Shown: one piece after another, positions 1-41,255 of the stretch
Position numbering within the stretch: the stretch's first letter is position 1
How the letters are laid out: each line of letters opens with the position of its first letter
From: Candidatus Desulfaltia sp.
Lineage (GTDB): Bacteria > Desulfobacterota > Desulfobacteria > Desulfobacterales > ETH-SRB1
DNA: 44,358 nucleotides
Assembly (NCBI GenBank): GCA_030656555.1
Contig: JAUSPN010000089.1
Location: forward strand, 1 to 44,358
Direction of reading: 5' to 3'
Made by a program: the position numbers and the translations under genes
The notes under the pieces: model-generated
Seen by the model: the letters and a program-made list of their open reading frames with translations, nothing else
Database searches by the model: none
What the model was told of the DNA's origin: nothing

Positions 1-41
1 TCGTAGAGTTTGTTAAATTGATTTACTTCTGTTTGTTTCAT
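1..41 (-). CDS. 5' end of a gene running off the left edge (possible tyrosine recombinase)
   Basis: On the minus strand an ATG at 41 is preceded by a strong AAGGAG ribosome binding site six bases upstream. It opens a frame reading MKQTEVNQFNKLY to the window edge. Only 13 residues are visible, so no family can be proved. The 'FNKLY' opening resembles the N-termini of some phage-type integrases (recalled, not searched). A divergently transcribed integrase next to the attC-like site at 132-189 would fit an integron head. The gene start is well supported; the identity is a guess. Confidence 0.45.
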   Translation of the reverse strand, partial: MKQTEVNQFNKLY

Positions 42-131
42 GGTATACTCCTTTTTTATAAGTGCCCGGAATTGGACACATATAGGAGTTATACACTATT
101 TTTGATTGTTTTTCTGCCGCGTAGCGGCTTC

Positions 132-189
132 GTTCAACAAGTAAGTCCAGCCGACCTCGTAAACTCGGCGGCTGATTTTTTCGTTAGCC
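132..189 (+). other. attC-like integron recombination site
   Basis: The left end GTTCAAC fits the attC R'' consensus RYYYAAC. The right end GTTAGCC resembles the R' consensus GTTRRRY. Inside, CAGCCG (148-153), an unpaired A (154) and CC (155-156) pair with GG (167-168) and CGGCTG (169-174) around a 10-nt loop. An imperfect hairpin with an extrahelical base on one arm is the structural hallmark of attC sites. At 58 bp it is at the short end of the known range. It could instead be an attI-type or unrelated hairpin. Confidence 0.45.
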
Positions 190-248
190 CGCTTCCGCAG
201 TAATGGTGGTAATAATTTAATGCGAGAATATACTGATCGGAGAATTCC

Positions 249-815
249 ATGAAACGCCTTTCTAATTTGCTGCTGACGCTGCTTGCAGTTTCCTGCATCG
301 GTTGCGCAACATTCCATCCCTCAACTAATGAGCAGAACGTAAGGCCAGACGACTTCGGTGTTGAGTACGAATGGCGCGAAGGGAGCCTGCCACCGCCTTA
401 CCATTACGAATACACCGTCATCATTAAGCCTTCGCGCCAAAGTGAGATCGTCCTGACTCCTGACTATCCTTCAATCACTGTGCCAAAGTGGACTGAATTT
501 TTTAAGGTAGAAGAGCAGGGCTTGAATGACCTGTACCGAGTGATGGTCGAAAACGGGCTATTCACACGAAAATGGCGGCAACTGGATGCGGCGCCGGTCG
601 GAGGCAGCAATCAGACGCTGGTTGTCACGGCGCAGGGGAAACGAATTAAGGTTGGGGATTACCTTGTCCCTGAGCAACAGGTTTCGGCAAAGGTAATGTA
701 TGCAGCGGTGCAGGCACTGGTCCCAAGGGATATTTGGGAGCGGTTGAAGGCGAGGCGTCAACAGTACATGCAAGAGCAGTTAAAGAATTGGGGTCGGGCC
801 GCAGGAACATCTTGA
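249..815 (+). CDS. Putative lipoprotein of unknown function
   Basis: This 188-residue protein begins with a charged n-region (MKR) and a hydrophobic stretch rich in Leu, ending in a cysteine-containing segment (AVSC, then IGC) that fits a signal peptidase II lipobox. It is therefore probably an acylated, membrane-anchored periplasmic or outer-membrane protein. The start is supported by GGAG six bases before the ATG. The mature part is hydrophilic, with prolines and aromatics in the first half and a basic/Gln-rich C-terminal helix. I do not recognise a domain. It stands alone, following the attC-like site at 132-189 in the orientation expected of a cassette gene. Its base composition is richer in GC than the aminomutase genes that follow, so the two blocks probably have different origins. 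Confidence 0.7.
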   Translation: MKRLSNLLLTLLAVSCIGCATFHPSTNEQNVRPDDFGVEYEWREGSLPPPYHYEYTVIIKPSRQSEIVLTPDYPSITVPKWTEFFKVEEQGLNDLYRVMVENGLFTRKWRQLDAAPVGGSNQTLVVTAQGKRIKVGDYLVPEQQVSAKVMYAAVQALVPRDIWERLKARRQQYMQEQLKNWGRAAGTS

Positions 816-867
816 TATAATATATAAAACGTTTAAATTTTGCATCAAATAAGGTTTTAAAGGGGCA

Positions 868-883
868 TTTTGGGGGGCCAAAA
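868..883. repeat. Small G-loop stem (degenerate copy of the 931-970 hairpin)
   Basis: TTTTGG pairs with CCAAAA around a GGGG loop. The same inner motif occurs inside the larger hairpin at 931-970. Loosely complementary TTTAAA/TTTTAA tracts flank it, so it looks like a decayed version of that structure. Confidence 0.4.
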
Positions 884-930
884 CACACTTTTAAGAGAAA
901 AGTCTAAGATTTTGTTGAAATACTATTTAG

Positions 931-970
931 CTTAAACGGCCCTTTGGGGGGTCCAAAAGAGCCGTTTAAG
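931..970. terminator. Strong 40-nt hairpin between the lipoprotein and kamA-like genes
   Basis: CTTAAACGGC (931-940) is the exact complement of GCCGTTTAAG (961-970). Inside it CTTTGG and CCAAAAG continue the stem around a G-rich loop. There is no long T-run on either side, so a classic Rho-independent terminator is not certain. It could also be an mRNA-stabilising hairpin or a repeat unit. Confidence 0.4.
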
Positions 971-1053
971 ACAATTATAGGGGCTATTTTGGGTTTCTTT
1001 TGCAGTTATTATAGTTGGTTGCTGTGGCCCGAAATTACAAAAAAGGTAATATC

Positions 1054-2592
1054 ATGCAAATAGTAAACGAAATATTCTACAAACACCGAAAATTTAACAC
1101 AATTGAATTGTGGAAAGATGTATCAGAAGATCAATGGAATGATGCAAACTGGCAATTAAAAAATTCAATTCGAAGCGTTGAACAATTGCAAAAGGTAATA
1201 AAATTAAATGCTTTTCAGGCAAAAGAAATAGAAAGGACAATAAAAACCTTAAAAGAACAAGGGAAAGAACCTTTTCGTATAACCCCATATTATGCCTCCT
1301 TGATGCAGGAAGATCCATTTCATCCGGTGATGTTACCGGGAGAAAAAGAAAAAAAACGGCTTGACCCTATTTTTTGGCAAAGCGTACCCACACCAGCTCA
1401 CCTGCTGTTTCCTGATGCAGGTATTGAGGGAGCAATGGCAGAAAGTTCGAGAAGTTACGGTGCTGCTTACCAACGTTATCCAAATAGACTTTCACTTTTT
1501 GTGGCACAAAATACAAGCTGTGCATTCTATTGCCAACATTGCCAAAGAACTAAATCATTAGACGGCTCTGTTGATGTAAATACTACTGAAATTAATAAAG
1601 GATTGTTTTATATCAGTCAAAACCGTAACATCAATGAAGTACTTGTTACCGGTGGCGATGCGCTTATGATTAGCAAACACCGTCTGCAATATGTTTTGGA
1701 AGAATTAAGTAAAATACCTCATCTTCGAGTGATCCGAATTGCAACCCGGGTTCCGGCAGTTTTGCCTATGGCAATTACAGATGAAATTTTAGAATTGATA
1801 AATACTTCGGCGAACAAATACACGAACGGACCTGAAAAATACGTGTATTTTATGACCCATTTAAATCACTATCAGGAAATTACTGAAGATTTGGCTTTAG
1901 CCGTAAAGAAAATACGCAATCACGGTTTTACCATCAGAAATCAAACGGTATTGCTTAATCATGTGAACGACTACTATAAAACACTTGCAGAAACCTTCAG
2001 ACGCATGTTTTGGATTGGCATCCAGCCTTATTATTTATTACAATGCCATAAAGAAAAAGGAATAGTTCATTTTATTACACCTATCCAAATTGGTAAAATC
2101 TATATGAAATATTTGCAAGGCTGGATTTCAGGAATTACAGTTCCAAGATACGCAGTAAATGTAGAAGGTGGAGGAGGCAAAGTATTGCTTATGCCATCAG
2201 GACATGACACATTAGAATTGGGCATTAATATCGATGATACAATATCTGAAAGTTATGCAACGGTTAGGACTTGGGATGGTAAAGAATTACTTAAATATGA
2301 AGCACTTGGCAGGGCCACCTACAAAGAGTATAAAAATAGCGTGGAAATTATGGATACTTTTATTGGAAGAAAGGGTGTATTCGTTCCAAAACTCATTATT
2401 GTTGATAATGAAGGAAACCATATTAAAACAACTAATAGAACAAAGTTACCTATAATTGATAAGTTAAAAAAATCTGAACTCTTGGGATATGAATTATATA
2501 AAAAAAATATGCCCCTGACAAATCCGGCAGACATAGCCGAGAAATTAGATGAACAATTCTTAAAATCAACATTCAATCAAAATTCAATTTAA
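1054..2592 (+). CDS. Radical SAM 2,3-aminomutase of the KamA family (probably not lysine-specific)
   Basis: A 512-residue PLP- and S-adenosylmethionine-dependent aminomutase, a family that moves an amino group from C2 to C3 of an amino acid. The cluster motif CxxxCxxC is present at C156, C160 and C163. The GGGGK motif supplies the PLP lysine (K376). The two aspartates that bind the side-chain amine in Clostridium lysine 2,3-aminomutase (D293, D330) are replaced by His332 and Asn369, at the conserved 37-residue spacing. Glutamate 2,3-aminomutase is reported to carry Lys and Asn there, so a substrate other than lysine is likely. I chose the ATG at 1054 (AAGGT upstream) over a TTG at 1015. The gene is AT-rich and lies 21 bp before an aminotransferase, so the two are probably one operon and probably acquired. 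Confidence 0.85.
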   Translation: MQIVNEIFYKHRKFNTIELWKDVSEDQWNDANWQLKNSIRSVEQLQKVIKLNAFQAKEIERTIKTLKEQGKEPFRITPYYASLMQEDPFHPVMLPGEKEKKRLDPIFWQSVPTPAHLLFPDAGIEGAMAESSRSYGAAYQRYPNRLSLFVAQNTSCAFYCQHCQRTKSLDGSVDVNTTEINKGLFYISQNRNINEVLVTGGDALMISKHRLQYVLEELSKIPHLRVIRIATRVPAVLPMAITDEILELINTSANKYTNGPEKYVYFMTHLNHYQEITEDLALAVKKIRNHGFTIRNQTVLLNHVNDYYKTLAETFRRMFWIGIQPYYLLQCHKEKGIVHFITPIQIGKIYMKYLQGWISGITVPRYAVNVEGGGGKVLLMPSGHDTLELGINIDDTISESYATVRTWDGKELLKYEALGRATYKEYKNSVEIMDTFIGRKGVFVPKLIIVDNEGNHIKTTNRTKLPIIDKLKKSELLGYELYKKNMPLTNPADIAEKLDEQFLKSTFNQNSI

Positions 2593-2613
2593 CCTATTAA
2601 CCAGAACGATATT

Positions 2614-3912
2614 ATGATCCATATTTCAATCAATCAAAATGAATTTATCAACCCAAATTTAAATGGGTTGGAGCAATCTGATACCCTGGCAATAAACGAA
2701 CGGTCAAAAGAACTTATTGCAAAAGGAAAAATAGTTTACCGGTTTGGACTTGGGCAATCTCCTTTTCCTGTGCCAAATTGTGTAGTTGAAGCTTTACGAC
2801 AAAATGCAGCGCAAAAAGACTATTTACCCGTAAAGGGTCTTCAGCAGTTGCGTGAAGCTGTTGCTGAATTTCATAGAAAAAAAGATGGTATTGCAGCTAT
2901 TGCTGATAATGTAATTGTCGGTCCCGGTTCTAAAGAACTTGTTTTTTTGCTACAATTGGTATTCAACAGTGAAATAATTATTGTCAGCCCTTGCTGGGTT
3001 TCTTACATTCCTCAAGCAAAAATTATTGGGAAAAAGATTTCTGTTATTCACAGTACTTATGAAGACAAATGGCATTTGGCACCTGCATTATTTCGTGATT
3101 ATCTAAAAAAGAGAAATATAAAAGATACGCTTACATTAATGATTTTAAATTATCCGGGCAATCCTGATGGTATTTCTTTTAATGAAGAGTATTTGAAAGA
3201 AATAGCTGCCTTGGCAAAAGAAAACAACATCTATATCCTTTCGGATGAAATTTACGGACAATTGAATCACTTAGGTCGTCATGTTTCTATTGCAAAATTT
3301 TATCCTGAAGGAACTATAATAAGCTCCGGACTATCTAAATGGTGCGGTGCCGGAGGTTGGCGATTAGGAACATTTACTTTCCCAGAAAATTTAAATTGGA
3401 TTTTAGAAAAAATGGCAATTGTTGCAAGTGAAACATATACATCCGTAAGCGCTCCCATACAATTTGCAGCAATACAAGCGTTCAAAGGCGGAACAGAAAT
3501 TGAAGAATATCTTTGGCATGCACGAAAAATTCTATCAAAAATCGGGAATGAATGTGCTGAAAAATTAAATAATGCCGGAATCAGAACACATGCTCCTGTT
3601 GGTGGTTTTTATCTTTTTCTCGATTTCTCAAATTTTACCGATAAAATACATTCAAAAGGAATAAAAACATCGAAAGAACTTTGTAATACGATTTTGAATG
3701 ATACAGGGGTAGCTATTCTACAAGGAAGTTCTTTTAATTGTAAGGAAGATCTATTTACTGCAAGAATAGCTTACATTGATTTTGATGGTGCAAGAGTGCT
3801 GGCTGCTGCTAAAACTGTTCCTATTCATGAACCTTTGCCTGCTTCTTTTACAATAACTTATTGTCACAAAGTACTTGAAGGCATTGATAAATTGATAAAT
3901 TGGTTTAACTAA
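2614..3912 (+). CDS. Class I/II PLP-dependent aminotransferase
   Basis: A 432-residue fold-type I aminotransferase of the aspartate aminotransferase superfamily. Visible landmarks are NYPGNP (N183), SDEIY (D211, Y214), the PLP Schiff-base lysine in SGLSK (K242) and the following GWRLG (R250). Length is slightly above the usual 380-410. It follows the KamA-family gene by 21 bp in the same direction, which suggests it acts on the same or a derived amino acid, for example deaminating a beta-amino acid or making its precursor. No strong Shine-Dalgarno precedes the ATG, and both genes are AT-rich with As upstream of the start, as in Bacteroidetes. That hints at lateral transfer. Substrate unknown. 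Confidence 0.85.
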   Translation: MIHISINQNEFINPNLNGLEQSDTLAINERSKELIAKGKIVYRFGLGQSPFPVPNCVVEALRQNAAQKDYLPVKGLQQLREAVAEFHRKKDGIAAIADNVIVGPGSKELVFLLQLVFNSEIIIVSPCWVSYIPQAKIIGKKISVIHSTYEDKWHLAPALFRDYLKKRNIKDTLTLMILNYPGNPDGISFNEEYLKEIAALAKENNIYILSDEIYGQLNHLGRHVSIAKFYPEGTIISSGLSKWCGAGGWRLGTFTFPENLNWILEKMAIVASETYTSVSAPIQFAAIQAFKGGTEIEEYLWHARKILSKIGNECAEKLNNAGIRTHAPVGGFYLFLDFSNFTDKIHSKGIKTSKELCNTILNDTGVAILQGSSFNCKEDLFTARIAYIDFDGARVLAAAKTVPIHEPLPASFTITYCHKVLEGIDKLINWFN

Positions 3913-4078
3913 TTACATTAAATATTTTAACTATTATTCATAAGACATTGATGTGCCTTTGACCAAAACACCAGATGCATTATTTAAATTAAAAAACATT
4001 TTAAAAAATCAAAATATTGCAAACAAGACTGAAAAGGCAGGGACAAAGGGGTAGAGTAGAGAGCTGGTTGCTGCAACC

Positions 4079-4228
4079 TTAGGTTTGGCATATATTATCC
4101 ATTTCCGCCTCTTTCGTCTGGCAGTGCCTCAATAGCCGTGCCGTAGCTGCCCCTTCTTTGGCCTCGATGTCCTCAAAAGTTGTGCCGTCTATGCCGGCGC
4201 TCCCTTTGTTGGCTCGGACAAGAGCATA
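4079..4228 (-). pseudogene. Fragment of a group II intron reverse transcriptase/maturase
   Basis: The minus-strand frame reads YALVRANKGSAGIDGTTFED followed by IEAKEG. This matches the conserved N-terminal block of group II intron-encoded reverse transcriptases (NKGSAGIDGxTxEDIE). It diverges after about 30 residues and stops at 4079-4081. No further RT blocks (YADD) or intron RNA domains are seen nearby. It is a small relic of a retroelement. Confidence 0.65.
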
Positions 4229-4304
4229 GGGGGACGGGGGACAAAAAGGGGGGCGGGGTTGAATTTAGGCGTTTCTTTTCATTTGTTTGGGGTAATGAAG
4301 TCAC

Positions 4305-4412
4305 ATGCTACGTCAATCCAGAATAGATGCGAAATACTGCAAAGACTGCGGAGCAAAACTTAAAAAAACCTGCTTTCCGATGAACTTCCATTTCTGTTTA
4401 AAATGCTGTTGA
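4305..4412 (+). CDS. Possible 35-residue zinc-ribbon microprotein
   Basis: An ATG at 4305 opens a 35-codon frame containing KYCKDCGAKL and ending FCLKCC. That gives two CxxC pairs plus extra cysteines, the spacing of a small zinc ribbon. There is no clear ribosome binding site and it sits amid mobile-element scraps. It may be a real small protein, the metal-binding end of a lost transposase, or chance. Confidence 0.2.
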   Translation: MLRQSRIDAKYCKDCGAKLKKTCFPMNFHFCLKCC

Positions 4413-4485
4413 CATAAAACCTGAGGACTTCCGGGACATCCTATTATAAATTTCTATTTTATCTGTTATATGATATGGTCTTAGC

Positions 4486-4668
4486 ATGCCACGTAAAGCC
4501 CGTATTGATGCTCCTGGTGCCCTTCATCATATTATTGTAAGAGGCATCGAACGGAGAAAAATATTTAAAGATAACACCGGCAGAAATAATTTTTTGGATC
4601 GGCTGGGAAAAGTGCTCTCAGAAACCGGCACAAAATGTTTTGCATGGGCCCTGATTCCCAACCACTAA
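4486..4668 (+). pseudogene. Truncated REP-associated tyrosine transposase (RAYT, Y1_Tnp)
   Basis: The 60-residue frame starts MPRKARIDAPGALHHIIVRG and is closely related to the longer copy at 32514-33029 on the other strand. It stops exactly at IPNH, before the HxH metal-binding motif (HFH) is completed, so it cannot be catalytic. The sequence after the stop is unrelated to the rest of the gene. It marks an old RAYT insertion beside the attC-like site at 4769. Confidence 0.8.
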
Positions 4669-4768
4669 TTTCAGGGGCGCAAGTCCCTCCGATTCCGCCC
4701 TTGCCTTCGGCTAATACTTTTGTTAATATATCAAAAATATTAACAGGGTTCACGCCCATGCCGGGCGT

Positions 4769-4839
4769 ACACAACTGAATTCACTCGGATGTCAGTTCCG
4801 CTGGAGCTCCACTCACCCCGGTGATTCAGAGCGTTCCGC
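4769..4839 (+). other. attC-like integron recombination site
   Basis: TGAAT-T-CAC-T-CGG (4776-4788) pairs with CCGGTGATTCA (4818-4828) if two T residues are left extrahelical. AAC (4773-4775) pairs with GTT (4833-4835) at the base. This is the attC plan: inverted arms, bulged bases on one strand, and a GTT crossover triplet preceded by GC. The outer R boxes (ACACAAC, GTTCCGC) deviate from consensus, so the site may be degenerate. The two-gene unit at 4889-5744 begins 50 bp downstream. Confidence 0.5.
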
Positions 4840-4888
4840 GCACAGAGTGACCATAGATGTTTTTAACCAAACTTAAAATAGGAAACAT

Positions 4889-5413
4889 ATGCTAAGAGAT
4901 GAAATTTTAAAATACTTGCATGCTCTTAACGAAAAGCTTCAGCGGCGAAATGTAAAAGGTGAGATATGTTTGTATGGTGGTGCCGTTATGTGTCTTGTTT
5001 ATGATGCAAGACCCAGCACAAAAGACGTTGATGCTATTTTTCAACCATCTGAAATTATAAGAGAGGTGGCCAAAGAGATTGCGAATGAGTATGAAATAGT
5101 GAATGATTGGCTAAATGATGGCGTTAAAGGATTCCTTGTTGAGCATCCAAGAAAAGTATTTCTTAACTTGTCACACTTGGTCGTTATGGTTGCTGATCCG
5201 GAATATATGTTGGCGATGAAATCCCTTTCAGCAAGAATTGATGGAACAGACAGTAAGGATATTGAGTTTTTAATCAATAAATTAAAGATCACTAATGTTG
5301 ATGAAGTATTTAAAATAATAGATAAATATTATCCACGTCGAATTGTCAAACCGGCGACTCAATTTTTTTTAGAGGAAGTATTCGATGAAATACAGGACAA
5401 TTCAAGAAGCTAA
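4889..5413 (+). CDS. Nucleotidyltransferase-like protein (DUF6036-type), possible toxin-antitoxin member
   Basis: A 174-residue protein with a nucleotidyltransferase-fold signature near the N-terminus: LYGGAVMCLVYDARPSTKDV with Gly30-Gly31 and the acidic pair D46/D48 (DVDAIF). Proteins of this type are commonly annotated as DUF6036 nucleotidyltransferases and occur in two-gene, toxin-antitoxin-like modules. The start is supported by AGGAAA before the ATG. The next gene overlaps it by 29 bp in another frame, which implies coupled translation. The unit lies between an attC-like site (4769-4839) and a possible half site (5779-5799), as a gene cassette would. The function as toxin or antitoxin is inferred. 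Confidence 0.6.
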   Translation: MLRDEILKYLHALNEKLQRRNVKGEICLYGGAVMCLVYDARPSTKDVDAIFQPSEIIREVAKEIANEYEIVNDWLNDGVKGFLVEHPRKVFLNLSHLVVMVADPEYMLAMKSLSARIDGTDSKDIEFLINKLKITNVDEVFKIIDKYYPRRIVKPATQFFLEEVFDEIQDNSRS

Positions 5414-5744
5414 GACGGCTATGTTGAAAAGTGGGGAAAACTGGCGAATTCCATTTATGGAATTTGTCGATGATTTACGTCGTACACGCGATCATAGTCT
5501 AATAGAGAAGCCCTTCTCCTTAAATGATGAAAATATCGATTCACTATTGGCTTCAACAACAGAGTATTTATGTGATGAAATGGGAATTGAAACGCCGAAT
5601 TGGATATGGAACGTTCCATCTTGCAAAGAGCCTTGGTTTGTTTCTGGATATGATAATTTAAAAGCAATATCGATAGCAGAAAGCCCTGTGTTTTTTCGCA
5701 GAAGGAAAATATTTGTATTGAAAAATTTTCTTTCACGAGTATAA
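5385..5744 (+). CDS. Hypothetical protein, partner of the DUF6036-like gene
   Basis: A 119-residue protein with no domain I recognise. It has acidic and aromatic stretches in the middle (TPNWIWNVPSCKEPWF) and a very basic C-terminus (FFRRRKIFVLKNFLSRV). Its start lies inside the preceding gene (29-bp overlap), a typical arrangement for stoichiometric partners. It is probably the second half of a two-gene module. The basic tail could bind nucleic acid, but that is speculative. Confidence 0.55.
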   Translation: MKYRTIQEAKTAMLKSGENWRIPFMEFVDDLRRTRDHSLIEKPFSLNDENIDSLLASTTEYLCDEMGIETPNWIWNVPSCKEPWFVSGYDNLKAISIAESPVFFRRRKIFVLKNFLSRV

Positions 5745-5778
5745 AATAAAGAAACGCAGGCCCTTTTCCCCGCTTGTA

Positions 5779-5799
5779 GGTGATGCGGAGACGTTGGCC
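5779..5799 (+). other. Possible right half of an attC site
   Basis: GGTGATGCGGAG followed by ACGTTGGCC parallels the right arm of the site at 4769-4839 (GGTGATTCAGAG, then CGTTCCGC). No matching left arm is visible upstream, so it may be a recombination remnant or chance. If real, it closes a cassette of about 960 bp (4833-5793). Confidence 0.25.
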
Positions 5800-5809
5800 A
5801 TCAATAAAA

Positions 5810-5845
5810 TTGACAACCCTTATCGTTCATGTTATCGTAATACGA
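5810..5845 (+). promoter_or_regulatory. Promoter and operator of the AbrB/PIN toxin-antitoxin pair
   Basis: TTGACA (5810-5815) is followed after 17 bp by TATCGT (5833-5838), a plausible sigma-70 promoter. TTATCGT occurs twice in this stretch, and TCGTA-A-TACGA (5835-5845) is a palindrome overlapping the -10. That is a likely binding site for the AbrB-type antitoxin to autoregulate the operon. Confidence 0.5.
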
Positions 5846-5869
5846 AATAATATCGATGGAGGTTGTGAC

Positions 5870-6076
5870 ATGCAAACTGTAACTGTATCACCAAAATATC
5901 AAGTCGTTATACCAAAAGTAGTCAGGGAGGCATTGCGTCTTCACCCAGGTCAAAAAATGCATGTTGTAGAATATGGTGGGCGGATCGAACTTATTCCAGA
6001 ACGAGATATTAAAGAGCTTCGCGGATTCCTCAAAGGCATAAACACTGAATTCGAACGTGAGGAAGATAGATTATGA
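5870..6076 (+). CDS. AbrB/SpoVT-type antitoxin
   Basis: A 68-residue protein starting MQTVTVSPKYQVVIPKVVRE, the swapped-hairpin AbrB DNA-binding fold (VxxKxQVVIPKxVRE, then LxPGQKMHVV). The start at 5870 is fixed by GGAGG at 5859-5863. The C-terminal 25 residues are charged and probably wrap the toxin. It overlaps the PIN gene by 4 bp (ATGA), the standard antitoxin-first layout. It should neutralise the downstream RNase and repress the promoter at 5810-5845. Confidence 0.85.
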   Translation: MQTVTVSPKYQVVIPKVVREALRLHPGQKMHVVEYGGRIELIPERDIKELRGFLKGINTEFEREEDRL

Positions 6077-6447
6077 ATATCGTCGATTCTTCCGGTTGGC
6101 TTGCATACTTCGCGGACGAGCCGAATGCCAAACATTTCCTGACACCTTTGAATGACACGGATTCGCTTGTTGTTCCAACGGTAACGATATATGAGGTCTT
6201 CAAGGTAGTTCTTCGAGAGTCCAGTGAGAATGAAGCGTTACAAGCAGCCGTTGCTATGCAAAAAGGAAGGGTTGTGGACCTGACAGCTTCTATGGCGATT
6301 GCTGCCTCAAAAATAAGTCTGGAGCACAAGATTCCAATGGCTGACAGTATTATTCTCGCAACAGCAAAAGAATTCGAGGCTACTATCTGGACTCAAGATT
6401 CAGATTTTATGAATATAGATGATGTGAAATATTTCCCCAAGAAATAA
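6073..6447 (+). CDS. PIN-domain ribonuclease toxin (VapC-like)
   Basis: A 124-residue PIN domain, an Mg-dependent RNase that inhibits translation in VapBC-type modules. The acidic active-site residues are in place: D5 (MNIVDSSGWL), E41 (TIYEVF), D91 (MADSIILATA) and D109/D111 (WTQDSDF). Length is normal for VapC. It overlaps its antitoxin by 4 bp. It appears intact, so the module is probably functional. Confidence 0.85.
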   Translation: MNIVDSSGWLAYFADEPNAKHFLTPLNDTDSLVVPTVTIYEVFKVVLRESSENEALQAAVAMQKGRVVDLTASMAIAASKISLEHKIPMADSIILATAKEFEATIWTQDSDFMNIDDVKYFPKK

Positions 6448-6487
6448 TTAAGGCGCAAAAGGGGGACGGATACCGGTGTTCACGGTC

Positions 6488-6521
6488 GAAGATTCCCTGT
6501 GGCTTGCGACAGGGAATCTTC
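6488..6521. terminator. Perfect 13-bp hairpin between convergent vapC-like and glnA genes
   Basis: GAAGATTCCCTGT (6488-6500) and ACAGGGAATCTTC (6509-6521) pair perfectly around an 8-nt loop. A run CAAAAAAC follows on the plus strand. It sits in the 112-bp gap between two convergent genes, so it probably acts as a bidirectional transcription stop. Confidence 0.55.
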
Positions 6522-6559
6522 AAAAAACTGTGAAGTGGGAACCGACAACCGTGATCGGA

Positions 6560-7972
6560 TTATATGTCGAAGTAAAGAAAAAATTCATGTGGATGCGGCC
6601 TGAGTTTAACAGCGTTTACCTCGTTTTTGGTCTTGTATTCAATCCATGTATCAATAACATCCTGTGTAAAAACATCCCCTTTGAGCAAAAAGGCGTGGTC
6701 TTCTTTTAAAGCGGCAAGAGCCTCTTCCAGAGAGCCGGGAGCAGACGGTATATTGGCAAGCTCTTCCGGCGGAAGACCATATATATCTTTGTCCAGCGGT
6801 TCACCAGGGTCTATCTTATTTTCTATGCCGTCAATTACAGCCATAAGAATAGCCGAAAAAGCCAGATATCCGTTACAGGATGGGTCAGGGGTTCGAAATT
6901 CAATCCGCTTTGCCTTTGGCGATGCGGAATACATCGGTATGCGGATTGCAGCACTACGATTACGGCTTGAATATGCCAGATTTACAGGAGCTTCAAAGCC
7001 CGGGACAAGCCGCTTGTAAGAATTGGTGGTCGGGTTGGTAAGAGCACACAGTGCCCTGCAGTGTTTTAATATCCCTCCGATTCCATAAAGAGCTTCCTGA
7101 GAAACTCCGGCATACTTGTCACCTGCAAAGATTGGCTCTCCTTTTTTCCATATGCTTATATGTGTGTGCATTCCAGAGCCGTTATCCTCGAAAAGAGGTT
7201 TCGGCATAAATGTAACCGTACGGTTATCACGAGTTGCCACGTTTTTAATCACATACTTAAACCACATGAGCTGGTCACCCATCTGTACAAGCGGTTTAAA
7301 TTGCATATCAATTTCTGACTGCCCGGCTGTTGCGACTTCTTGGTGCTGGCACTCAATATCTATTCCAAGTTTTTCAAGGGTGAGAAGCATTCGGGTGCGC
7401 AGATCCTGAAATTTGTCGGTGGGAGGAACAGGAAAGTATCCCTGTTTATACCTTGTTTTATAGCCAAGATTCGGGCATTCTTCTCTGCCGCTGTTCCATA
7501 TCCCTTCTACAGAGTCAACCTCATAGAAAGCCATGTTTGTCGATGATTCAAAGCGTACATCATCAAAGATAAAAAATTCTGCTTCAGGACCGATATAAGC
7601 TGTATCGCCAATTCCGCTGCCCTTCAGGAATAATTCCGCTTTTTTAGCTATATAGCGCGGGTCGCGGGAATAAGGTTCCCGTGTAAGAGGGTCAGCAATA
7701 TCTCCGATAAGAACCATAGTCGGTGCTTCAAAGAAAGGATCCATCTTTGCGGTAGCGGGGTCGGGTATCACAAGCATGTCGCTTGCGTGTATAGGCTGCC
7801 ACCCCCTGATGCTTGAGCCATCAAACCCGAAACCGTCTTCAAAGCTCGATTCATTAAGTTCGCTTATCGGCACGGTAAAATGCTGCCATATCCCGGGAAG
7901 GTCAAGAAATCGTAAATCAACAACCTTAACCTTATTTTCTTTTGCCATTTCTAACACCTGTTTTGGTGTCAT
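6560..7972 (-). CDS. glnA: Glutamine synthetase, type I
   Basis: A 470-residue GSI that makes glutamine from glutamate, ammonia and ATP in the cytoplasm. Family landmarks include DGSSIRGW near the N-terminus, the ATP-binding GSGMHTHIS segment and the Glu-flap/NRSAAIRIP region. The regulatory tyrosine (Y398 in [11 protein letters not shown]) matches the adenylylation site of E. coli Tyr397. It is therefore a GSI-beta-type enzyme likely controlled by GlnE, whose gene is not in this window. It lies 20 bp downstream of glnB in the same direction, so the two form one operon tying the enzyme to its nitrogen sensor. Intact and of normal length. Confidence 0.97.
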
Positions 7973-7992
7973 AATAATTATTCTCCTGAAAG

Positions 7993-8334
<342 letters not shown>

Positions 8335-8572
8335 TCATGTCTCCTTTTGCGAATAAAAACCAATCCGATTACCTGAAGCTCATTACGTAAAAGTTATTTT
8401 AGTCTACAGTGACAAATAGTGGCATAACATAGCTTTTTACGAGGCTGTCAAACTTGAGGATTTGATTTTTAAATAATTTTGCTATATAGATTTCGATAAA
8501 AATTTCAACCAATATTTATACTATTATTCTTAAATTTACAATAAAAATATTTTCCAGAATTAAAGGATTATT

Positions 8573-9673
8573 ATGCGGCTTTTGAAGCTTTACATAAATC
8601 AGGAGGTTGCTGATTCAGATGAGGTTATTTCCATAAAATCGCGCCTTAATCTACCTTCTGAAACAGTTCAGGATGCGCGTGAATTATTTGAATTGATTTC
8701 ATCAGCGGATGATCCTGTTAAAAAAGGGAAAGAGATTCTTTTCCTTACAAAAAATAATGGCGCTTTTATCAAACCATGTCCTGGAACCCGCCATTATACA
8801 TGTTGCGGCTACAAGATACTGCAGATCGGCACTTTCTGCACCATGGACTGTTCTTACTGCATCCTGCAATCATATTTTCATCCGCCTGTTCTTCAGTATT
8901 TCGTTAACCATGACGATCTTCTGTCAGAATTAGACACCCTGTTTCAAAAAAAGATTGTGAGAAGGGTAGGGACCGGAGAGTTTACTGACAGCATGATCTG
9001 GGAGTGGTGGACAGACCTTTCAAGCCTGCTTATTCCTAAGTTTTCAGGCCAAACATCCGCCGTGCTGGAACTAAAGACCAAAACAATTGCCATTAACAGG
9101 CTGAAAAATCTCGATCACAATCGCAAGACAATAGTTTCCTGGTCACTTAATACAAATGCAATTATCAGCAATGAGGAGCGTCATACAACCTCTCTTTCCG
9201 AGAGGCTAAAAGCGGCTGCCAAATGCGAGTCGTGGGGATATCCGCTGGCCTTTCATTTTGATCCAATAGTTATTTATGAAGGCTGCGAAGAGGATTACAG
9301 GCAAGTGATTATACAGCTCTTTTCCACACTATCTTCTGAAAATATCGTATGGATAAGCCTCGGTACTTTTAGATTTATGCCGTCTTTAAAACAGGTTATC
9401 CAAAAACGGTTTCCTGAATCAAAAATAATATATGGAGAATTCATATCCGGCCTTGACAATAAGATGCGCTACTTTAAGCCTCTTCGTATTGATCTTTATC
9501 AAAAGATGGCCTCCTGGATCAAGGAGGCAGCCCCTAATGTTCTTGTCTATTTCTGCATGGAAGATGATGAGGTATGGGAAAAGTCTCTTGGATTTATCCC
9601 ATCTGACTGCGGAGGTCTGCCTAAAATGCTGGATGAAGCTGCTGTGAGGCATTGCGGACTTGATAGAACTTAG
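8573..9673 (+). CDS. SPL-family radical SAM protein
   Basis: A 366-residue protein related to spore photoproduct lyase, a radical SAM enzyme that repairs DNA photoproducts in spore formers. The 4Fe-4S motif CxxxCxxC is at C89, C93 and C96 (CTMDCSYCILQ), preceded by CPGTRHYTCCGY with three more cysteines (C69, C77, C78). Non-sporulating deltaproteobacteria carry such homologues without proven function, so DNA repair is an inference. The ATG follows an AAAGGA tract. It is divergent from glnB and appears monocistronic. A heptad-repeat element follows its stop codon. Confidence 0.75.
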   Translation: MRLLKLYINQEVADSDEVISIKSRLNLPSETVQDARELFELISSADDPVKKGKEILFLTKNNGAFIKPCPGTRHYTCCGYKILQIGTFCTMDCSYCILQSYFHPPVLQYFVNHDDLLSELDTLFQKKIVRRVGTGEFTDSMIWEWWTDLSSLLIPKFSGQTSAVLELKTKTIAINRLKNLDHNRKTIVSWSLNTNAIISNEERHTTSLSERLKAAAKCESWGYPLAFHFDPIVIYEGCEEDYRQVIIQLFSTLSSENIVWISLGTFRFMPSLKQVIQKRFPESKIIYGEFISGLDNKMRYFKPLRIDLYQKMASWIKEAAPNVLVYFCMEDDEVWEKSLGFIPSDCGGLPKMLDEAAVRHCGLDRT

Positions 9674-33103: not shown

Positions 33104-35447
33104 GAAACACCCCCACGTGCGTGGGGAAGACAAAACCGACCTCTCAGATCGTTTTTAGGGGTAGGAAACACCCCCACGTGCGTGGGGAAGACCATGACTT
33201 TTGAAAGCGTATCCAGCAACAAGCAGAAACACCCCCACGTGCGTGGGGAAGACGCCCTCCTTGTGGTGCGGAGGACTGCATTGATAGAAACACCCCCACG
33301 TGCGTGGGGAAGACGCATTTATATCGCCATGAAGATGCTCCGCAATAGAAACACCCCCACGTGCGTGGGGAAGACTAACTCAGGCAAGGGAAAAAAAGAA
33401 ATGAAGCGGAAACACCCCCACGTGCGTGGGGAAGACTCTTTTCGCCGTAAAGATTCTGACTCAACCAAGAAACACCCCCACGTGCGTGGGGAAGACACCA
33501 GCAATAAAGGCAGGCACGGCTTCGGATTAGAAACACCCCCACGTGCGTGGGGAAGACCTGCCTCCCTTTTTTAACCGGCGTTATTACCGGGAAACACCCC
33601 CACGTGCGTGGGGAAGACATTGCATCATCGTCTGTTACCCCATATTCGTCGGAAACACCCCCACGTGCGTGGGGAAGACTTTGCTCTAATTCTATATTTT
33701 GAGGTGGTATGGAAACACCCCCACGTGCGTGGGGAAGACTCACAGACAAAATGAAACTGCCAAGGGTGCCGAGAAACACCCCCACGTGCGTGGGGAAGAC
33801 TCAGCATGGAAAGCCATAGTTTCATAATAACGAGAAACACCCCCACGTGCGTGGGGAAGACTGTCTGTATAGATCGATGTAAACGCCCCGAATAGAAACA
33901 CCCCCACGTGCGTGGGGAAGACCAATCATGGCGACCGGATGGAACTGCCGCACAAGAAACACCCCCACGTGCGTGGGGAAGACCACCTACATTCCTATTT
34001 TAATTGCGCCCCAACAGAAACACCCCCACGTGCGTGGGGAAGACTCAATATATCTGCCGGGCAGAGCCGGTGGAATAGAAACACCCCCACGTGCGTGGGG
34101 AAGACAGTCGGGTCTTATCCCTTGAGGTGCCTGGTAAAGAAACACCCCCACGTGCGTGGGGAAGACCCCTTTCCAGCGACCGGCATAACCCATCGCTACG
34201 AAACACCCCCACGTGCGTGGGGAAGACCCTTACCATACGAACTTGCTATTTCATGCCTAAGAAACACCCCCACGTGCGTGGGGAAGACTGCCTTGCCTCT
34301 TCTTTCGCTACAGCCCAACAGGAAACACCCCCACGTGCGTGGGGAAGACCCTCAATTTGATCCGCTTTGCTAAGGCATATCAGAAACACCCCCACGTGCG
34401 TGGGGAAGACTGCCGCCATGGCCGGCCGTAGAATAACTGATGAGAAACACCCCCACGTGCGTGGGGAAGACTCCGATGTGCGAAAGTGATGAAAACTGTA
34501 TAAAGAAACACCCCCACGTGCGTGGGGAAGACCTACAAAGCAATCCTCATGCCATCTTTGTGCCAGAAACACCCCCACGTGCGTGGGGAAGACCACAACC
34601 GGCAACCAAACCAACCCCAGATCAAAGAAACACCCCCACGTGCGTGGGGAAGACTTTGCCTTGGTTGTAAAGTACGCTGTAGCTCGAGAAACACCCCCAC
34701 GTGCGTGGGGAAGACTGGTATAACCTGACAGGTGCACAAATCTATATGGAAACACCCCCACGTGCGTGGGGAAGACTAAACCGATTTAAACCAGTTACGG
34801 GCAACCGCAGAAACACCCCCACGTGCGTGGGGAAGACCTGGTTTTATTAAGAATAAAAAATGTTGACAAGGAAACACCCCCACGTGCGTGGGGAAGACTA
34901 TGGAGTTTAGAAGTTTTAGAAGCCGGAACGAGAAACACCCCCACGTGCGTGGGGAAGACTGAAAATCACCCAAAAGTGGGGAAAATAACCGGGAAACACC
35001 CCCACGTGCGTGGGGAAGACGATATCTCTATACGCTTCTGCACAACGATGAAAGAAACACCCCCACGTGCGTGGGGAAGACTTACTCCTTTGTTTGTTTC
35101 AGTAGTTGTTGATAGAAACACCCCCACGTGCGTGGGGAAGACAGCTGCGGAAAACAATAAGAAACGCAACCATCAGAAACACCCCCACGTGCGTGGGGAA
35201 GACCTGATTGATATGCTCTACTACGGTGCCCTGATGGAAACACCCCCACGTGCGTGGGGAAGACCGTCTTTCTTCACTGTAATCTCGTCAAGTTTCAGAA
35301 ACACCCCCACGTGCGTGGGGAAGACTCGTGCACTGTATATAGATACTATTCTATTATAGAAACACCCCCACGTGCGTGGGGAAGACAAAGCGTGCCAAAA
35401 AGACGAAATACGGCCAAAAGAAACACCCCCACGTGCGTGGGGAAGAC
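33104..35447 (-). CRISPR. Type I-E CRISPR array, 39 repeats and 38 spacers
   Basis: A 28-nt repeat, plus-strand form starting GAAACACCCCCAC and ending GTGGGGAAGAC, recurs 39 times without any difference I can see. Spacing is 61 bp in 36 intervals and 60 bp in two (33-nt spacers; 32-nt before 33469 and 33712). By comparison with I-E repeats (GTGTTCCCC...), the crRNA sense is the minus strand: GTCTTCCCCAC-GCAC-GTGGGG stem, then the tag GTGTTTC. Newest spacers should be at the cas2 end. No degenerate terminal repeat exists at 33104. Confidence 0.98.
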
Positions 35448-35530: not shown

Positions 35531-35793
35531 ATTAGCTGTAACCCTGAAATAGAAATCAATTCTCGACGAGGATCCCCAATGCCTCTGATTTTATAACCTG
35601 GGACACGGTTGATTCGCTGAAAAATGACGACCCCTGCATCCGATGAGCAATATTTGTGCAAATAGTTTACGACACCATCAGCAACAGAGTCTTTTACACT
35701 CGAGATAAAAACATTTGGCTTCGGCTCTATAAACCACAGTTTCATTCTACCCCTTACTGCAGGGGGCAAATCATTCGCCAGCACGACTAGCAC
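35473..35793 (-). CDS. cas2: Cas2, type I-E (CRISPR integrase subunit)
   Basis: A 106-residue ferredoxin-fold protein that bridges two Cas1 dimers in spacer integration. The Cas2e pattern is clear: LVVLANDLPPAVRGRMKLWF, IEPKPNVFISSVKDSVAD, and the late GLQLIL strand. I prefer the GTG at 35793 because GGAGG lies five bases before it and Cas2e usually starts M-L-V-V. The ATG at 35805 (four residues longer) is the alternative. It overlaps cas1. The tail after GLQLILEK is longer than usual and runs toward the array. Confidence 0.92.
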   Translation of the reverse strand: MLVVLANDLPPAVRGRMKLWFIEPKPNVFISSVKDSVADGVVNYLHKYCSSDAGVVIFQRINRVPGYKIRGIGDPRRELISISGLQLILEKQGATLLPKQHHNIVI

Positions 35794-36640
35794 GTTTACC
35801 TCCATTTAAAGCATAATTAATATCAACAGGAATTTTTGCCAATAAATCTATATCAATAACCCGTTTGCGAAACTCACTTGCTACCATTGCTTTATCATAT
35901 TTGCCTGCCATTTCGAGAGTTGCCAAAAACGCGAGATCTATGCACAAATGTTCTTTATACAGATCGGCCATGTCATACACAAAGGGCAAGGGACTCCCCG
36001 AATGAATAAACCCAATATGTGGTGAGTAGCCTAAAGCATAAATGCTTGATAGAAGAATGCCATAAAGCGCCGCATTTGCTGAAGTAAGAATTTTATTTGT
36101 CATGTCTGACATCGCAAATTTCCCGGGTTGGTATGATCTGCCCTGCCAACCGACACCATACTTTTTTGCCAATTTCTCATATAGCTGGCGGACACGATGG
36201 CCTTCCATACCCATCATCTCCTTGAGTATTTTCCCCTCAAGGTCTGCGGCTGGGAAACGCATAGCAAACATGCGTCGAGCGACTTCAACTGATTTTATTT
36301 TATCGCAGGACAATTCCATCTGCCGCCGAAAATTTCGCGTGCTGGCAGTCGGCGTATGCCCAACCGCATAGAAAATCAGACTGTCCTCCCCCACCCAGCA
36401 CACCCCGCAATTGGCAGAAGCCAAAACTTTGACTGATTCATGTGTCAAGGTTGTGCCTGGCCCTAAGAGCAGAGTGCCGATAGTTGCGATAGGAAGGCGT
36501 ACCACATTATTCTCGCAGTCAATCCACTTCACACTGCTGTCGTCCACCTCAAGACGCCCCCTTTCCAAATACAGAAACGGGTATTTGTCCTTAACTTGCG
36601 GCAGAGTATCCCGCGTGACTTTTACCAATAGACGATTCAT
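35771..36640 (-). CDS. cas1: Cas1, type I-E (CRISPR integrase)
   Basis: A 289-residue integrase that inserts new spacers at the leader end. The metal site is complete: E146 (MEGHRVRQLYE), H213 (IGFIHSG) and D226 (FVYDMADLY), each exactly five positions later than E141/H208/D221 of E. coli Cas1. The N-terminal beta domain and helical catalytic domain are of normal length. ATGA overlap with cas5e and overlap with cas2 show a tightly coupled operon. Adaptation should be functional. Confidence 0.96.
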   Translation of the reverse strand: MNRLLVKVTRDTLPQVKDKYPFLYLERGRLEVDDSSVKWIDCENNVVRLPIATIGTLLLGPGTTLTHESVKVLASANCGVCWVGEDSLIFYAVGHTPTASTRNFRRQMELSCDKIKSVEVARRMFAMRFPAADLEGKILKEMMGMEGHRVRQLYEKLAKKYGVGWQGRSYQPGKFAMSDMTNKILTSANAALYGILLSSIYALGYSPHIGFIHSGSPLPFVYDMADLYKEHLCIDLAFLATLEMAGKYDKAMVASEFRKRVIDIDLLAKIPVDINYALNGGKRASRAGE

Positions 36641-37359
36641 GCGGGCACCACTGTAACGCGACGATCACGATATTTTTTGATCTCGCCAAATTGGATAGGT
36701 ACATCATTCAGCGTCATCACATTGCCTTCATACTCACCGTCCAAGACACGAAAATCTTCAAGCAAGTGTTTGTCCTGCGCAAGCGCTCCCGCCTTTTGCC
36801 ATGCATCATCTATGCTGTCAAAAGAGCCCTGGAAGATTCTCTCAGTTGGCACGCAACTTTTACGACCAAAGTAGAGATCGTAAACGGGGTTTTGAAGGGC
36901 ATCGCTAATGGTAACATCCATGTTCGCAGGAACTTCCAATACAGCCGCAAAGCGAGCGTCCTGGAGGTAATACCGGTAGGTCATTTTAGAACCACCGCCT
37001 ACTGCCGGTTTTCCTTCACTGGTTTTGGGGATTAACAACTTCTGCCAAACATCCTTGTTATTATACCCGCTTCCGACCATATGAAAATCCCGAAGCAATG
37101 GCTCCTTGGTTACTTTGTCACGGTTCTGACCATCCTTGCTATGTTTTGAACGCACATAGGACACAATTTCGAGTTTCCCCATGCTCAATTTAGCAAGCAG
37201 ATCTTTCTGGGAGCCAGATGCCCCCATAGCGCAGAGCACCAGCCCCAAAACCCCCGACTTTGTCGGAAACGGCAGGGTGTCTCGTCGCCCAAATTTGGAA
37301 TCAGCCCCCCACGCTTGCAGAGGAGCTTCAATCCATAAAAGGATATATTTTTTCTCCAT
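36637..37359 (-). CDS. cas5e: Cas5e (CasD) Cascade subunit
   Basis: A 240-residue RAMP protein that caps the 5' tag of the crRNA in Cascade. It shows the I-E Cas5 start ILLWIEAPLQAWGADSKFGR, the PTKSGVLGLVLCAMG block and the late VPTERIF region. Start and stop are shared by short overlaps: 1 bp with cas7e (TAATG) and 4 bp with cas1. Confidence 0.95.
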   Translation of the reverse strand: MEKKYILLWIEAPLQAWGADSKFGRRDTLPFPTKSGVLGLVLCAMGASGSQKDLLAKLSMGKLEIVSYVRSKHSKDGQNRDKVTKEPLLRDFHMVGSGYNNKDVWQKLLIPKTSEGKPAVGGGSKMTYRYYLQDARFAAVLEVPANMDVTISDALQNPVYDLYFGRKSCVPTERIFQGSFDSIDDAWQKAGALAQDKHLLEDFRVLDGEYEGNVMTLNDVPIQFGEIKKYRDRRVTVVPA

Positions 37360-38504
37360 TATGCCACCTTAGCAACTTCAGTTTTAAGGAATGACACAAC
37401 CTCGTCAATGCCTTTGTCTCCACCATATTCAATCATACCCTGCTCCCCGTACAGAGAACCCCATAACTTTTTCTGCTTATCAAGGTAGGTCGTAAGCGCT
37501 GTCATGCTGGGTTCAAGAATACTGCCGTTTTCGGGTCGTATCGCCTTTTCAAAGGGCGCTTGCAGGCGTTGACCCTTGCGCACAGTAATACGTGCAAAAT
37601 CCCAGGGTGAGGCACCGGACATGGTGGTCTGCCTGGCTGCGGGAATGGCCACAAAAAGCGCTTTGGTAAAAGCTTCAACAGATTCGACCATATTGCTACC
37701 AGCCAGATTTGTCCACAACTGCCCCAGGTCCAGACTGACATAACGGTAATAGGTGGCTGAATTAAATTCCAAGCTACCCATATGGGCAGAGCCTTGATCC
37801 TCTTTATTGTCATCCAGGGCCGTAAAAAATTCCACTTCATTGCTAACGCGATGGGTGGAAATTGCGTGTGCAAAAGAGGTTGCGGCTTCTATGTTCATCG
37901 TGGCCGCTTGTGCTACCATTCTGCCAAAAAGGGCAATGTCTATCCCATCCGTTTCATAATCAAGTCTTGGTTTGCCAATCAGGCCGGCTAATTCTTTGGC
38001 CTGCTTTTTGGCATCCTTTTGTACGATTAGCGCATCAGGATCAAAGTCTTTTTCTTTTAAAGCATTGGCAATTTTTGTTACTTCTGTTGGACTGAGAAAC
38101 AGGAGGGTATCTGTTTTCTCTGTAGAGGTTTCAGTGTCAGAATCTTCTTCAGGTTTTGTTTTTTTCCCTTTATCAGTAACATCTGATTTTTTGATAAAAA
38201 TACGCTCAATCTTTTGACCGCACTTTTCAGCTTCTTCTTGGGTTGCTCCCAGTTCTTTGCATTTTGCAGCAATCAGTTTAGCGATAAGTTTTGTTCTGGT
38301 TCCTTGTGGCAAACCCATTTCGTGAATTGCCAACCGAACCTGTCGTTTCCAGCACTGGCTGCTGACACGGGCGCGGGAAGTGCCGCCCACCATAGCGCTT
38401 TTAGGGGCTCCCACATCATCGCGATTGAGGCAGGTAACAGGGAATGACTGAAGGATATGAAACTCTACACGCTGTCCACAAAAAGGGTTGTTTTGCTGAG
38501 TCAT
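37359..38504 (-). CDS. cas7e: Cas7e (CasC) Cascade backbone subunit
   Basis: A 381-residue RAMP protein that polymerises along the crRNA. The signature NRDDVGAPKSAMVGGTSRAR, followed by VSSQCWKRQVRLAI, is typical. A charged low-complexity insert (around residues 108-135, DKGKKTKPEEDSDTETSTEK) lies in the thumb/palm region and may vary between relatives. AAGGAG precedes the ATG. It is preceded by cas6e with a 29-bp gap. Confidence 0.95.
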   Translation of the reverse strand: MTQQNNPFCGQRVEFHILQSFPVTCLNRDDVGAPKSAMVGGTSRARVSSQCWKRQVRLAIHEMGLPQGTRTKLIAKLIAAKCKELGATQEEAEKCGQKIERIFIKKSDVTDKGKKTKPEEDSDTETSTEKTDTLLFLSPTEVTKIANALKEKDFDPDALIVQKDAKKQAKELAGLIGKPRLDYETDGIDIALFGRMVAQAATMNIEAATSFAHAISTHRVSNEVEFFTALDDNKEDQGSAHMGSLEFNSATYYRYVSLDLGQLWTNLAGSNMVESVEAFTKALFVAIPAARQTTMSGASPWDFARITVRKGQRLQAPFEKAIRPENGSILEPSMTALTTYLDKQKKLWGSLYGEQGMIEYGGDKGIDEVVSFLKTEVAKVA

Positions 38505-38533
38505 TTGATTCTCCTTACTTAGAATTTTATAGG

Positions 38534-39130
38534 TTATTGTGTTTGCAAGGGAATAATTTGTAAAAAGCCAAAGCCGAAACCCTTGGCACGACCGATTCCT
38601 TTGCGAAAACTCTGCTGAAACTTGACACGATTTGTTACCTTCAGCTTTCCAATAAAAGAAGCACTGTTATGGGTAACGATACTACCGTTGCCGAGGTCAA
38701 AGGTTTGTACCCCGGCATGACGAATCTCAAGGCTTTCCGCCTGAATTTCAAAGCCAAGCGAAGGCGCCTTGCCCAGGAACCATTGGCGCAGGTTCTCACG
38801 CCCACGAATAGCGACCGTTTTCCTGGTTTGCTTATCCCGCTTTGTTGGGTTAAGCGTAATTTCAAAGCCATAATTGTCATGATCCAAAAAGCTGTCGGCT
38901 ATCAGCTTGGATTGAATTTCTCCGTATTGTGGGATTTCAGGTTTGCGATCTGAAAGAATCAATATTTGCCGTGCCTGAAAATCGCCGCCTTTGTCGACAA
39001 AGAGAAAGTCTCTGGACTCTCCGGGAAACAGTTCATAGACTACACGGTGAATGGTGTAACCGTCCATGGTCTTGTTGTTGTTGAGTGCCTTGCAGTCCGA
39101 GCGGCTCAATCTAAGCACCGATGCTATCAT
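38534..39130 (-). CDS. cas6e: Cas6e (CasE) crRNA endoribonuclease
   Basis: A 198-residue double-RAMP nuclease that cuts the repeat at the base of its hairpin and stays on the crRNA 3' end. The likely catalytic pair is Y25/H28 (MDGYTIHRVVYELF), and the Gly-rich loop GIGRAKGFGFGFLQI is at the C-terminus. The ATG at 39130 is chosen because GGAGG precedes it; an ATG seven codons upstream is not used. It overlaps cse2 by 20 bp. Its position between cse2 and cas7e differs from E. coli, where it follows cas5e. Confidence 0.94.
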   Translation of the reverse strand: MIASVLRLSRSDCKALNNNKTMDGYTIHRVVYELFPGESRDFLFVDKGGDFQARQILILSDRKPEIPQYGEIQSKLIADSFLDHDNYGFEITLNPTKRDKQTRKTVAIRGRENLRQWFLGKAPSLGFEIQAESLEIRHAGVQTFDLGNGSIVTHNSASFIGKLKVTNRVKFQQSFRKGIGRAKGFGFGFLQIIPLQTQ

Positions 39131-39638: not shown

Positions 39639-39650
39639 AATTCTCCTTTT

Positions 39651-41237: not shown

Positions 41238-41255
41238 AGTCATTCTCCTTGAGTC

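Follow-up and report, generated by a model that had tools for sequence, protein, structure and literature searches.

The KamA family of radical SAM enzymes moves an amino group from C2 to C3 by a radical-driven shift, with the amino acid held by PLP. To our knowledge, the natural substrates known for radical SAM 2,3-aminomutases are few, i.e., lysine, glutamate, arginine and EF-P-linked lysine. A 44,358-nucleotide stretch of DNA from Candidatus Desulfaltia sp., analyzed here as a whole and referred to as the window, encodes a KamA-like protein (P0001) that appeared to lack both lysine-binding aspartates of clostridial lysine 2,3-aminomutase (KAM), and an aminotransferase gene follows directly downstream. 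The initial annotation of this DNA raised the possibility of an undescribed beta-amino acid pathway (osmolyte, antibiotic building block or fermentation step). Which amino acid, then, would such an enzyme use, and does its neighbor have a part in the answer?

The features of the locus are listed in Table 1. The reading frame of P0001 begins with an ATG at 1054, and its stop codon ends at 2592; an in-frame TTG is located 39 bases upstream, and the starts of relatives favor the ATG. In a phmmer search with P0001, the single distinct solved sequence at E <= 0.001 was lysine 2,3-aminomutase (2a5h, E 6e-62). The predicted model of P0001 is of middling confidence (pLDDT 75.9) and superimposes on 2a5h with a VIA-align Z of 41.7 and an rmsd of 1.9 A over 338 residues. 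The C-terminal region, when modeled alone, gave a pLDDT of 54, too poor for a fold search, and it had no convincing Pfam or PDB sequence match (17 members in the Pfam search). Pfam MalM matched this region in 13 of the 17 members at E up to 1; P0001 had E 0.0062 and 16.7 bits, where the cut-off is 26, and the lowest E among members was 0.00067. In the PDB, the top sequence match reached E 0.04. Both matches were taken as chance.

Table 1. Positions in the window of the kamA-like gene, its key codons and the gene that follows it
Feature	Position	Strand	Basis
kamA-like gene, 512-aa radical SAM/PLP 2,3-aminomutase of the His/Asn subfamily (P0001)	1054..2592	+	ORF, family models, alignment, predicted fold
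CxxxCxxC [4Fe-4S]/SAM motif, C156-C160-C163	1519..1542	+	sequence, alignment
His332 codon (KAM D293 position)	2047..2049	+	phmmer, alignment
Asn369 codon (KAM D330 position)	2158..2160	+	phmmer, alignment
Lys376 codon (equivalent of KAM Lys337)	2179..2181	+	alignment
Subfamily-specific C-terminal region, ~121 aa	2227..2589	+	no convincing Pfam or PDB sequence match
Aminotransferase of class I/II (432 aa), next gene after kamA with a gap of 21 bp	2614..3912	+	ORF, family models

P0001 scored above the cut-off of the model for KamA family radical SAM proteins (TIGR00238; 241.8 bits, cut-off 199.2). It did not reach the cut-offs for the lysine (TIGR03820; 276.4 bits, cut-off 525.4), glutamate (TIGR04368; 263.8 bits, cut-off 650) or arginine enzymes (TIGR04468; 209.4 bits, cut-off 600), and scored 185 bits against AblA_like_2 (cut-off 396) and 168 bits against the EpmB model TIGR03821 (cut-off 369). 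Six other members of what we describe below as a subfamily had 202.5-268.8 bits with TIGR00238 and behaved like P0001 across models. P0001 resembles lysine 2,3-aminomutase (KamA/AblA, 2a5h) in its predicted fold, in the CxxxCxxC motif (C156/C160/C163) and in the equivalents of KAM R112 (R141), R116 (R145), R134 (R165) and K337 (K376, the PLP lysine after GGGG). We take KAM K337 to be the PLP-binding lysine and R134 the carboxylate-binding arginine, roles that presumably fall to K376 and R165 in P0001. Because this catalytic set is complete, P0001 very likely carries out a PLP-held, radical-driven shift of the amino group from C2 to C3. It differs from the lysine enzyme by D293H, D330N, Y290L and the longer C-terminal region.

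The phmmer alignment with 2a5h and a MAFFT alignment agree in placing His332 at KAM D293 and Asn369 at KAM D330, as the initial annotation had it. That annotation also held that Asn369 matches the Asn of glutamate 2,3-aminomutase while His332 matches neither enzyme, and this is what we found: the pair is K,N in all seven proteins above the TIGR04368 cut-off, and D,D in 2a5h and two annotated AblA proteins. Residues were read from a table of 120 rows, for which removal of identical copies left 119 of 145 KamA matches, two references were added and one copy of P0001 was taken out. The subfamily makes up 36 of these rows (34 distinct proteins), and two further members read later bring it to 36 distinct proteins; the 61 rows of the D,D group and the 22 of the K,N group owe their labels to these very residues, and their purity is no test. 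His and Asn are present in 36/36 distinct members, P0001 included. The pair in P0001 is not due to chance, because the 35 other loci, chosen by full-length similarity and not by residues, each give one H,N protein. These 35 proteins are 44-82% identical to P0001 and come mostly from Bacteroidota MAGs, with three labeled Proteobacteria, one from a Delongbacterium and one from a methanogen. Leu at KAM 290 (Leu329 in P0001) is likewise found in 36/36 members. This position is Phe throughout the 22 K,N rows; the 61 D,D rows divide into 49 with Tyr and 12 with Phe.

Enzymes with known cationic substrates (KAM 2a5h, annotated AblA, EpmB and BlsG) retain an acid at 293. Two of these belong to the KamA family like P0001 and differ from its H,N pair: the arginine 2,3-aminomutase BlsG has D,T at 293/330, and E. 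coli EpmB, an EF-P lysylation mutase, has D,E. The initial annotation had further pointed to the coincidence of numbering with glutamate 2,3-aminomutase. The two positions are spaced by 37 in 22/22 K,N proteins, of which none is numbered exactly 332/369; therefore, the matching numbers have no meaning beyond the 37-residue spacing. KAM Cys268, a zinc ligand, was considered as a marker of the lysine type and dropped, since Cys is absent in 32 of the 61 D,D rows (present in 29); P0001 has Tyr at this position, and 35/36 subfamily rows have no Cys, one row being unreadable.

A broader comparison took the 63 positions at which each of the three groups (D,D, K,N and H,N) reaches 90% conservation. 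Identical residues occupy 44 of them across all three groups, including R112, R116, the three Cys, R134 and K337. Relative to the D,D group, the K,N group differs at 10/63 positions and the subfamily at 17/63, with eight positions in common against 2.7 expected (hypergeometric p 2e-4, or 0.002 when positions 293/330 are left out, both values ignoring relatedness). At four of these eight, the subfamily and the K,N group have the same residue (M128, Q164, T199 and N369), which makes P0001 similar to glutamate 2,3-aminomutase at Asn330 and at the equivalents of Met98, Gln133 and Thr169. Common ancestry, rather than convergence, may therefore account for the pocket residues that the two groups share. 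P0001 differs from glutamate 2,3-aminomutase in having His, not Lys, at 293 and Leu, not Phe, at 290, and in lacking the FH(P/A)K motif, with QCH instead of H(P/A)K; in addition, the subfamily has Gln where the glutamate enzyme has Arg at KAM 111.

One report describes the K/N pair as conserved in glutamate 2,3-aminomutase and linked to glutamate binding, and also mentions that some clusters of this subgroup contain no annotated protein (PMC3965090). Thus, unassigned KamA groups were already known; the conserved His/Asn pocket type is apparently undescribed as far as our searches show, and no description of the subfamily was found in the literature searched, which most subscription papers fell outside of. 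The engineered alanine 2,3-aminomutases have also lost an active-site Asp, probably the equivalent of KAM D330; these are laboratory mutants of lysine enzymes, whereas the P0001 subfamily is a natural clade. A review that covers these mutants gives D331G and D339H, each with one active-site Asp replaced, as the key change, and assigns 331 to B. subtilis and 339 to P. gingivalis (PMC9850924). The two organisms may be swapped in these residue numbers, because KAM D330 aligns with residue 339 of B. velezensis KamA.

Placement in a KamA tree had been proposed in the initial annotation as a check; it put P0001 in its own clade and did not cluster it with lysine 2,3-aminomutases. In a tree of 117 rows, the bootstrap of which is not fully settled, a branch with 100/100 separates the 33 subfamily rows from all others; the K,N rows group without P0001 (100/99), and support for the D,D rows is only 76/90. 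Although the labels (D,D, K,N and H,N) were given by residue, they follow the clades of this tree. It was built without the L060/L080 protein (the same gene at both loci, with a product 82% identical to P0001) and without L117 and L118, which are partial copies of L109 and L114. L080 was restored in trees of 44 rows, and members L180 and L181 are absent from all trees. The subfamily (12 rows) is still supported at 100/99 in the 44-row trees after removal of ten pocket columns, and its monophyly is therefore not circular.

We propose that P0001 represents an apparently undescribed subfamily of radical SAM/PLP 2,3-aminomutases with an acidic or amide substrate, likeliest L-glutamate or L-glutamine, a reading from sequence to which we give about an even chance. 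PLP would hold the alpha-amino group of the free L-amino acid, a 5'-deoxyadenosyl radical would abstract a beta hydrogen, and the nitrogen would shift from C2 to C3, followed by release of a beta-amino acid. With His332, Asn369 and Leu329 replacing the Asp, Asp and Tyr of KAM, the pocket would be unsuited to a cationic group, which is disfavored because both acids (D293 and D330) are lost. It would suit an acidic or amide side chain, favored because His and Asn occur together with glutamate-type residues, and the product would be beta-glutamate or beta-glutamine, perhaps retained as a compatible solute. The same His/Asn/Leu pocket could fit other side chains.

The alternatives differ mainly in the side chain assigned to this pocket. 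P0001 might be a glutamate 2,3-aminomutase in function, with His332 replacing Lys332 as the gamma-carboxylate partner; this is a special case of our reading, its probability is contained in that of the latter, and we view it as somewhat unlikely. The Asn at 330 and the Q, T and M at three other positions agree with it, as does the best 117-row tree, in which subfamily and K,N rows form one side of a weakly supported branch (76/55; 86/49 in the 44-row tree with all columns). However, P0001 has 264 bits against the TIGR04368 cut-off of 650, the subfamily clade is separate from the K,N clade, and the residues at 290 and 111 and the absence of FH(P/A)K set it apart. Moreover, once the pocket columns are removed, the join with K,N is no longer in the best tree, although it is not rejected (p-AU 0.35); the tree without these columns carries a warning of long-branch meeting (subfamily with L136). 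That P0001 has kept the lysine 2,3-aminomutase function in a rearranged pocket appears very improbable: TIGR03820 is its best-scoring equivalog (276 bits), but both lysine-binding Asp residues are lost in every subfamily member read, P0001 is 28-37% identical to the 61 D,D rows, and two KamA proteins of the D,D type are already encoded in the window's genome. A natural 2,3-aminomutase for an amide side chain, e.g., glutamine or N-epsilon-acetyl-lysine, is a tentative possibility, for which we see somewhat less than an even chance; we know of no characterized 2,3-aminomutase that uses such a substrate. If true, it would provide a route to beta-glutamine or acetyl-beta-lysine solutes, and a fused acetyltransferase-deacetylase would allow reversal in some carriers.

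Such a fusion bears on N-epsilon-acetyl-lysine in particular, which as the substrate would lead to the known AblA/AblB solute with the steps in reverse order; we consider this clearly unlikely. In L062, a gene for a GNAT-deacetylase fusion precedes the mutase gene by 23 bp; in L109, it follows at a distance of 26 bp, and an MscS channel gene comes next. The deacetylase domain of the fusion beside these two members is nearest to acetylpolyamine amidohydrolases, which suggests an omega-amine and not glutamate. In another genome (G683), the fusion sits next to a KamA of the D,D type, the window's genome has it on another contig (55% identical), and the change of KAM Tyr290 to Leu may widen the pocket. 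On the other hand, the fusion is a neighbor in only 2/36 loci, no AblB homology was found for its GNAT part, and it also occurs with ATP-grasp genes, in what seems to be another operon. The full-length fusion was present in 5/34 carrier genomes and 0/13 non-carriers, a small and unmatched control in which the non-carriers are all of one order and two of the five fusion carriers are not known to belong to that order.

The fusion also belongs to an apparently unnamed gene set that includes two ATP-grasp proteins and a GNAT. In G683 (L133:5702-11183), it adjoins two D-Ala-D-Ala-ligase-like ATP-grasp genes and a GNAT, with the D,D-type KamA added, and in G766 (L134:8351-12704) it adjoins what by eye is the same ATP-grasp pair and GNAT. 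The corresponding genes in the window's genome are at L135:5011-8322 and L132:2379-4337, where a KamA of the D,D type has an ATP-grasp-GNAT fusion nearby and the GNAT-deacetylase fusion is on a separate contig. NCBIfam has no model that matches the GNAT-deacetylase fusion, and the tested proteins of G683 and L135 are below the cut-offs among the matches listed.

The pathway that the initial annotation had drawn from the downstream aminotransferase was not borne out, as no close homologue of the latter occurs near the mutase in the 35 other subfamily loci. The sole aminotransferase match there at E 1e-3 is 22.5% identical and ~6 kb away (L060). The protein belongs to class I/II, is nearest to aspartate aminotransferases and is below the cut-offs of the best 25 of the 59 NCBIfam families that it matched. 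Matches at E 1e-30 are present in 29/50 genomes, mostly at 28-33% identity, and orthologues (47-49%) among these 50 genomes only in G802 and G810. Because the aminotransferase is adjacent to the mutase in this window only, its position argues weakly for a pathway. The location of both genes on one strand, with a 21 bp gap and the same low GC, is consistent with a two-gene catabolic or antibiotic building-block pathway. BlsG (blasticidin) also has an aminotransferase gene downstream, but of another family, and a D,D-type KamA locus (L078) has an aminotransferase 29.7% identical to that of the window, ~2 kb away on the other strand. Yet the pairing was seen in 1/36 subfamily loci, that of the window, and the G802 and G810 orthologues are on contigs apart from the mutase, and we regard such a pathway as quite improbable. 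What stands of the proposed undescribed enzyme with a pathway is thus the enzyme, by sequence neither of the lysine nor of the typical glutamate type, and not the part based on the aminotransferase.

The MscS gene in one locus and the GNAT-deacetylase fusion in two give the proposed osmolyte role weak circumstantial support. Beta-glutamate and beta-glutamine are known solutes of methanogens; a review reports NMR evidence in methanogens that excluded formation of beta-glutamate by a glutamate aminomutase, and synthesis of beta-glutamine by glutamine synthetase (PMC1224877). Insofar as these solutes have other sources in methanogens, a solute role of P0001 would therefore be a different route.

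Other neighbors of the mutase gene mostly differ from locus to locus. A same-strand neighbor within 80 bp is present in 12/36 loci, no partner gene is conserved across the 36 subfamily loci, and a conserved operon was rejected, neighbors being held in common mainly among near relatives. Upstream membrane proteins in L061 (399 aa) and L100 (393 aa), by eye candidate Na+/H+ antiporters, were set aside; that of L061 had no Pfam or NCBIfam match. Control of the mutase gene by a salt or c-di-AMP riboswitch was also rejected, as no riboswitch was found near the gene in window 1-9000 or in nine relative loci. Rfam gave nothing at the gathering threshold in the former; in the latter, nine of the 35 other loci, its matches were limited to two tRNAs and a DUF805b motif, all distant from the gene.

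The distribution of the subfamily is patchy. A scan of genome contigs returned 20 loci, 17 of which are subfamily relatives at 44-82% identity: 12 from named Bacteroidota MAGs (71-82%), one from a Delongbacterium (with an assembly gap), one from a Methanosarcinaceae archaeon, and three labeled Alphaproteobacteria, Proteobacteria and Deltaproteobacteria. The last two are the relatives found in a sample of 395 genomes from the window's phylum, which had two full-length relatives, 55% identical. Among the matches listed for 291 sampled genomes of the window's order, 217 genomes had some KamA match, the 290 other genomes had no full-length relative, and the best-scoring other match was 40% identical over residues 9-382 only. 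The gene is carried by 17/344 genomes in the order of G670 and by 3/395 in its phylum (G670 counted in both), and by 1/119 in the order of the archaeon, i.e., the archaeon itself.

In the 117-row tree, P0001 groups (98/85) with seven other rows, of which six are of Bacteroidota origin and the seventh comes from a MAG labeled Alphaproteobacteria. The GC content of kamA (0.352) and the aminotransferase gene (0.346) is below that of the window (0.424) and among its lowest 5% of stretches. This low GC, the identities (71-82% to the Bacteroidota MAG proteins versus 55% to the two relatives from the phylum sample), the lack of a full-length relative in the 290 other genomes of the order and the nested place in the tree make a Bacteroidota donor the probable source of the pair. 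Viral and plasmid carriage were considered and rejected: 60 stretches in viral contigs matched a pattern and none encodes a relative, and among 136 matching plasmid records the best 15 are at <= 35.4% identity.

Several additional features were observed. A Mariniphaga MAG (G672, L062) apparently has two mutase copies, on contigs C422 and C432, both 77% identical to P0001. Next to the kamA pair, window positions 4889-6447 contain small genes that by eye resemble a nucleotidyltransferase/toxin-antitoxin area (AbrB-like, PIN-like), possibly mobile. A 366-aa protein with CxxxCxxC (8573-9673) resembles by eye a radical SAM protein of the spore-photoproduct-lyase type. The stretches 33833-35020 and 35771-43838 contain a CRISPR-like repeat array (unit GAAACACCCCCACGTGCGTGGGGAAGAC plus spacer) beside proteins that by eye resemble a cas set of type I-E (Cas3, Cse1, Cse2, Cas6, Cas7, Cas5 and Cas1).

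Overall, a clade with a conserved and different pocket provides a well-delimited case for testing what determines side-chain specificity in these enzymes. Its members are mostly from Bacteroidota, with one archaeal member, and the subfamily may point to the source of a beta-amino acid in Bacteroidota. Genes of the His/Asn type should not be named ablA.
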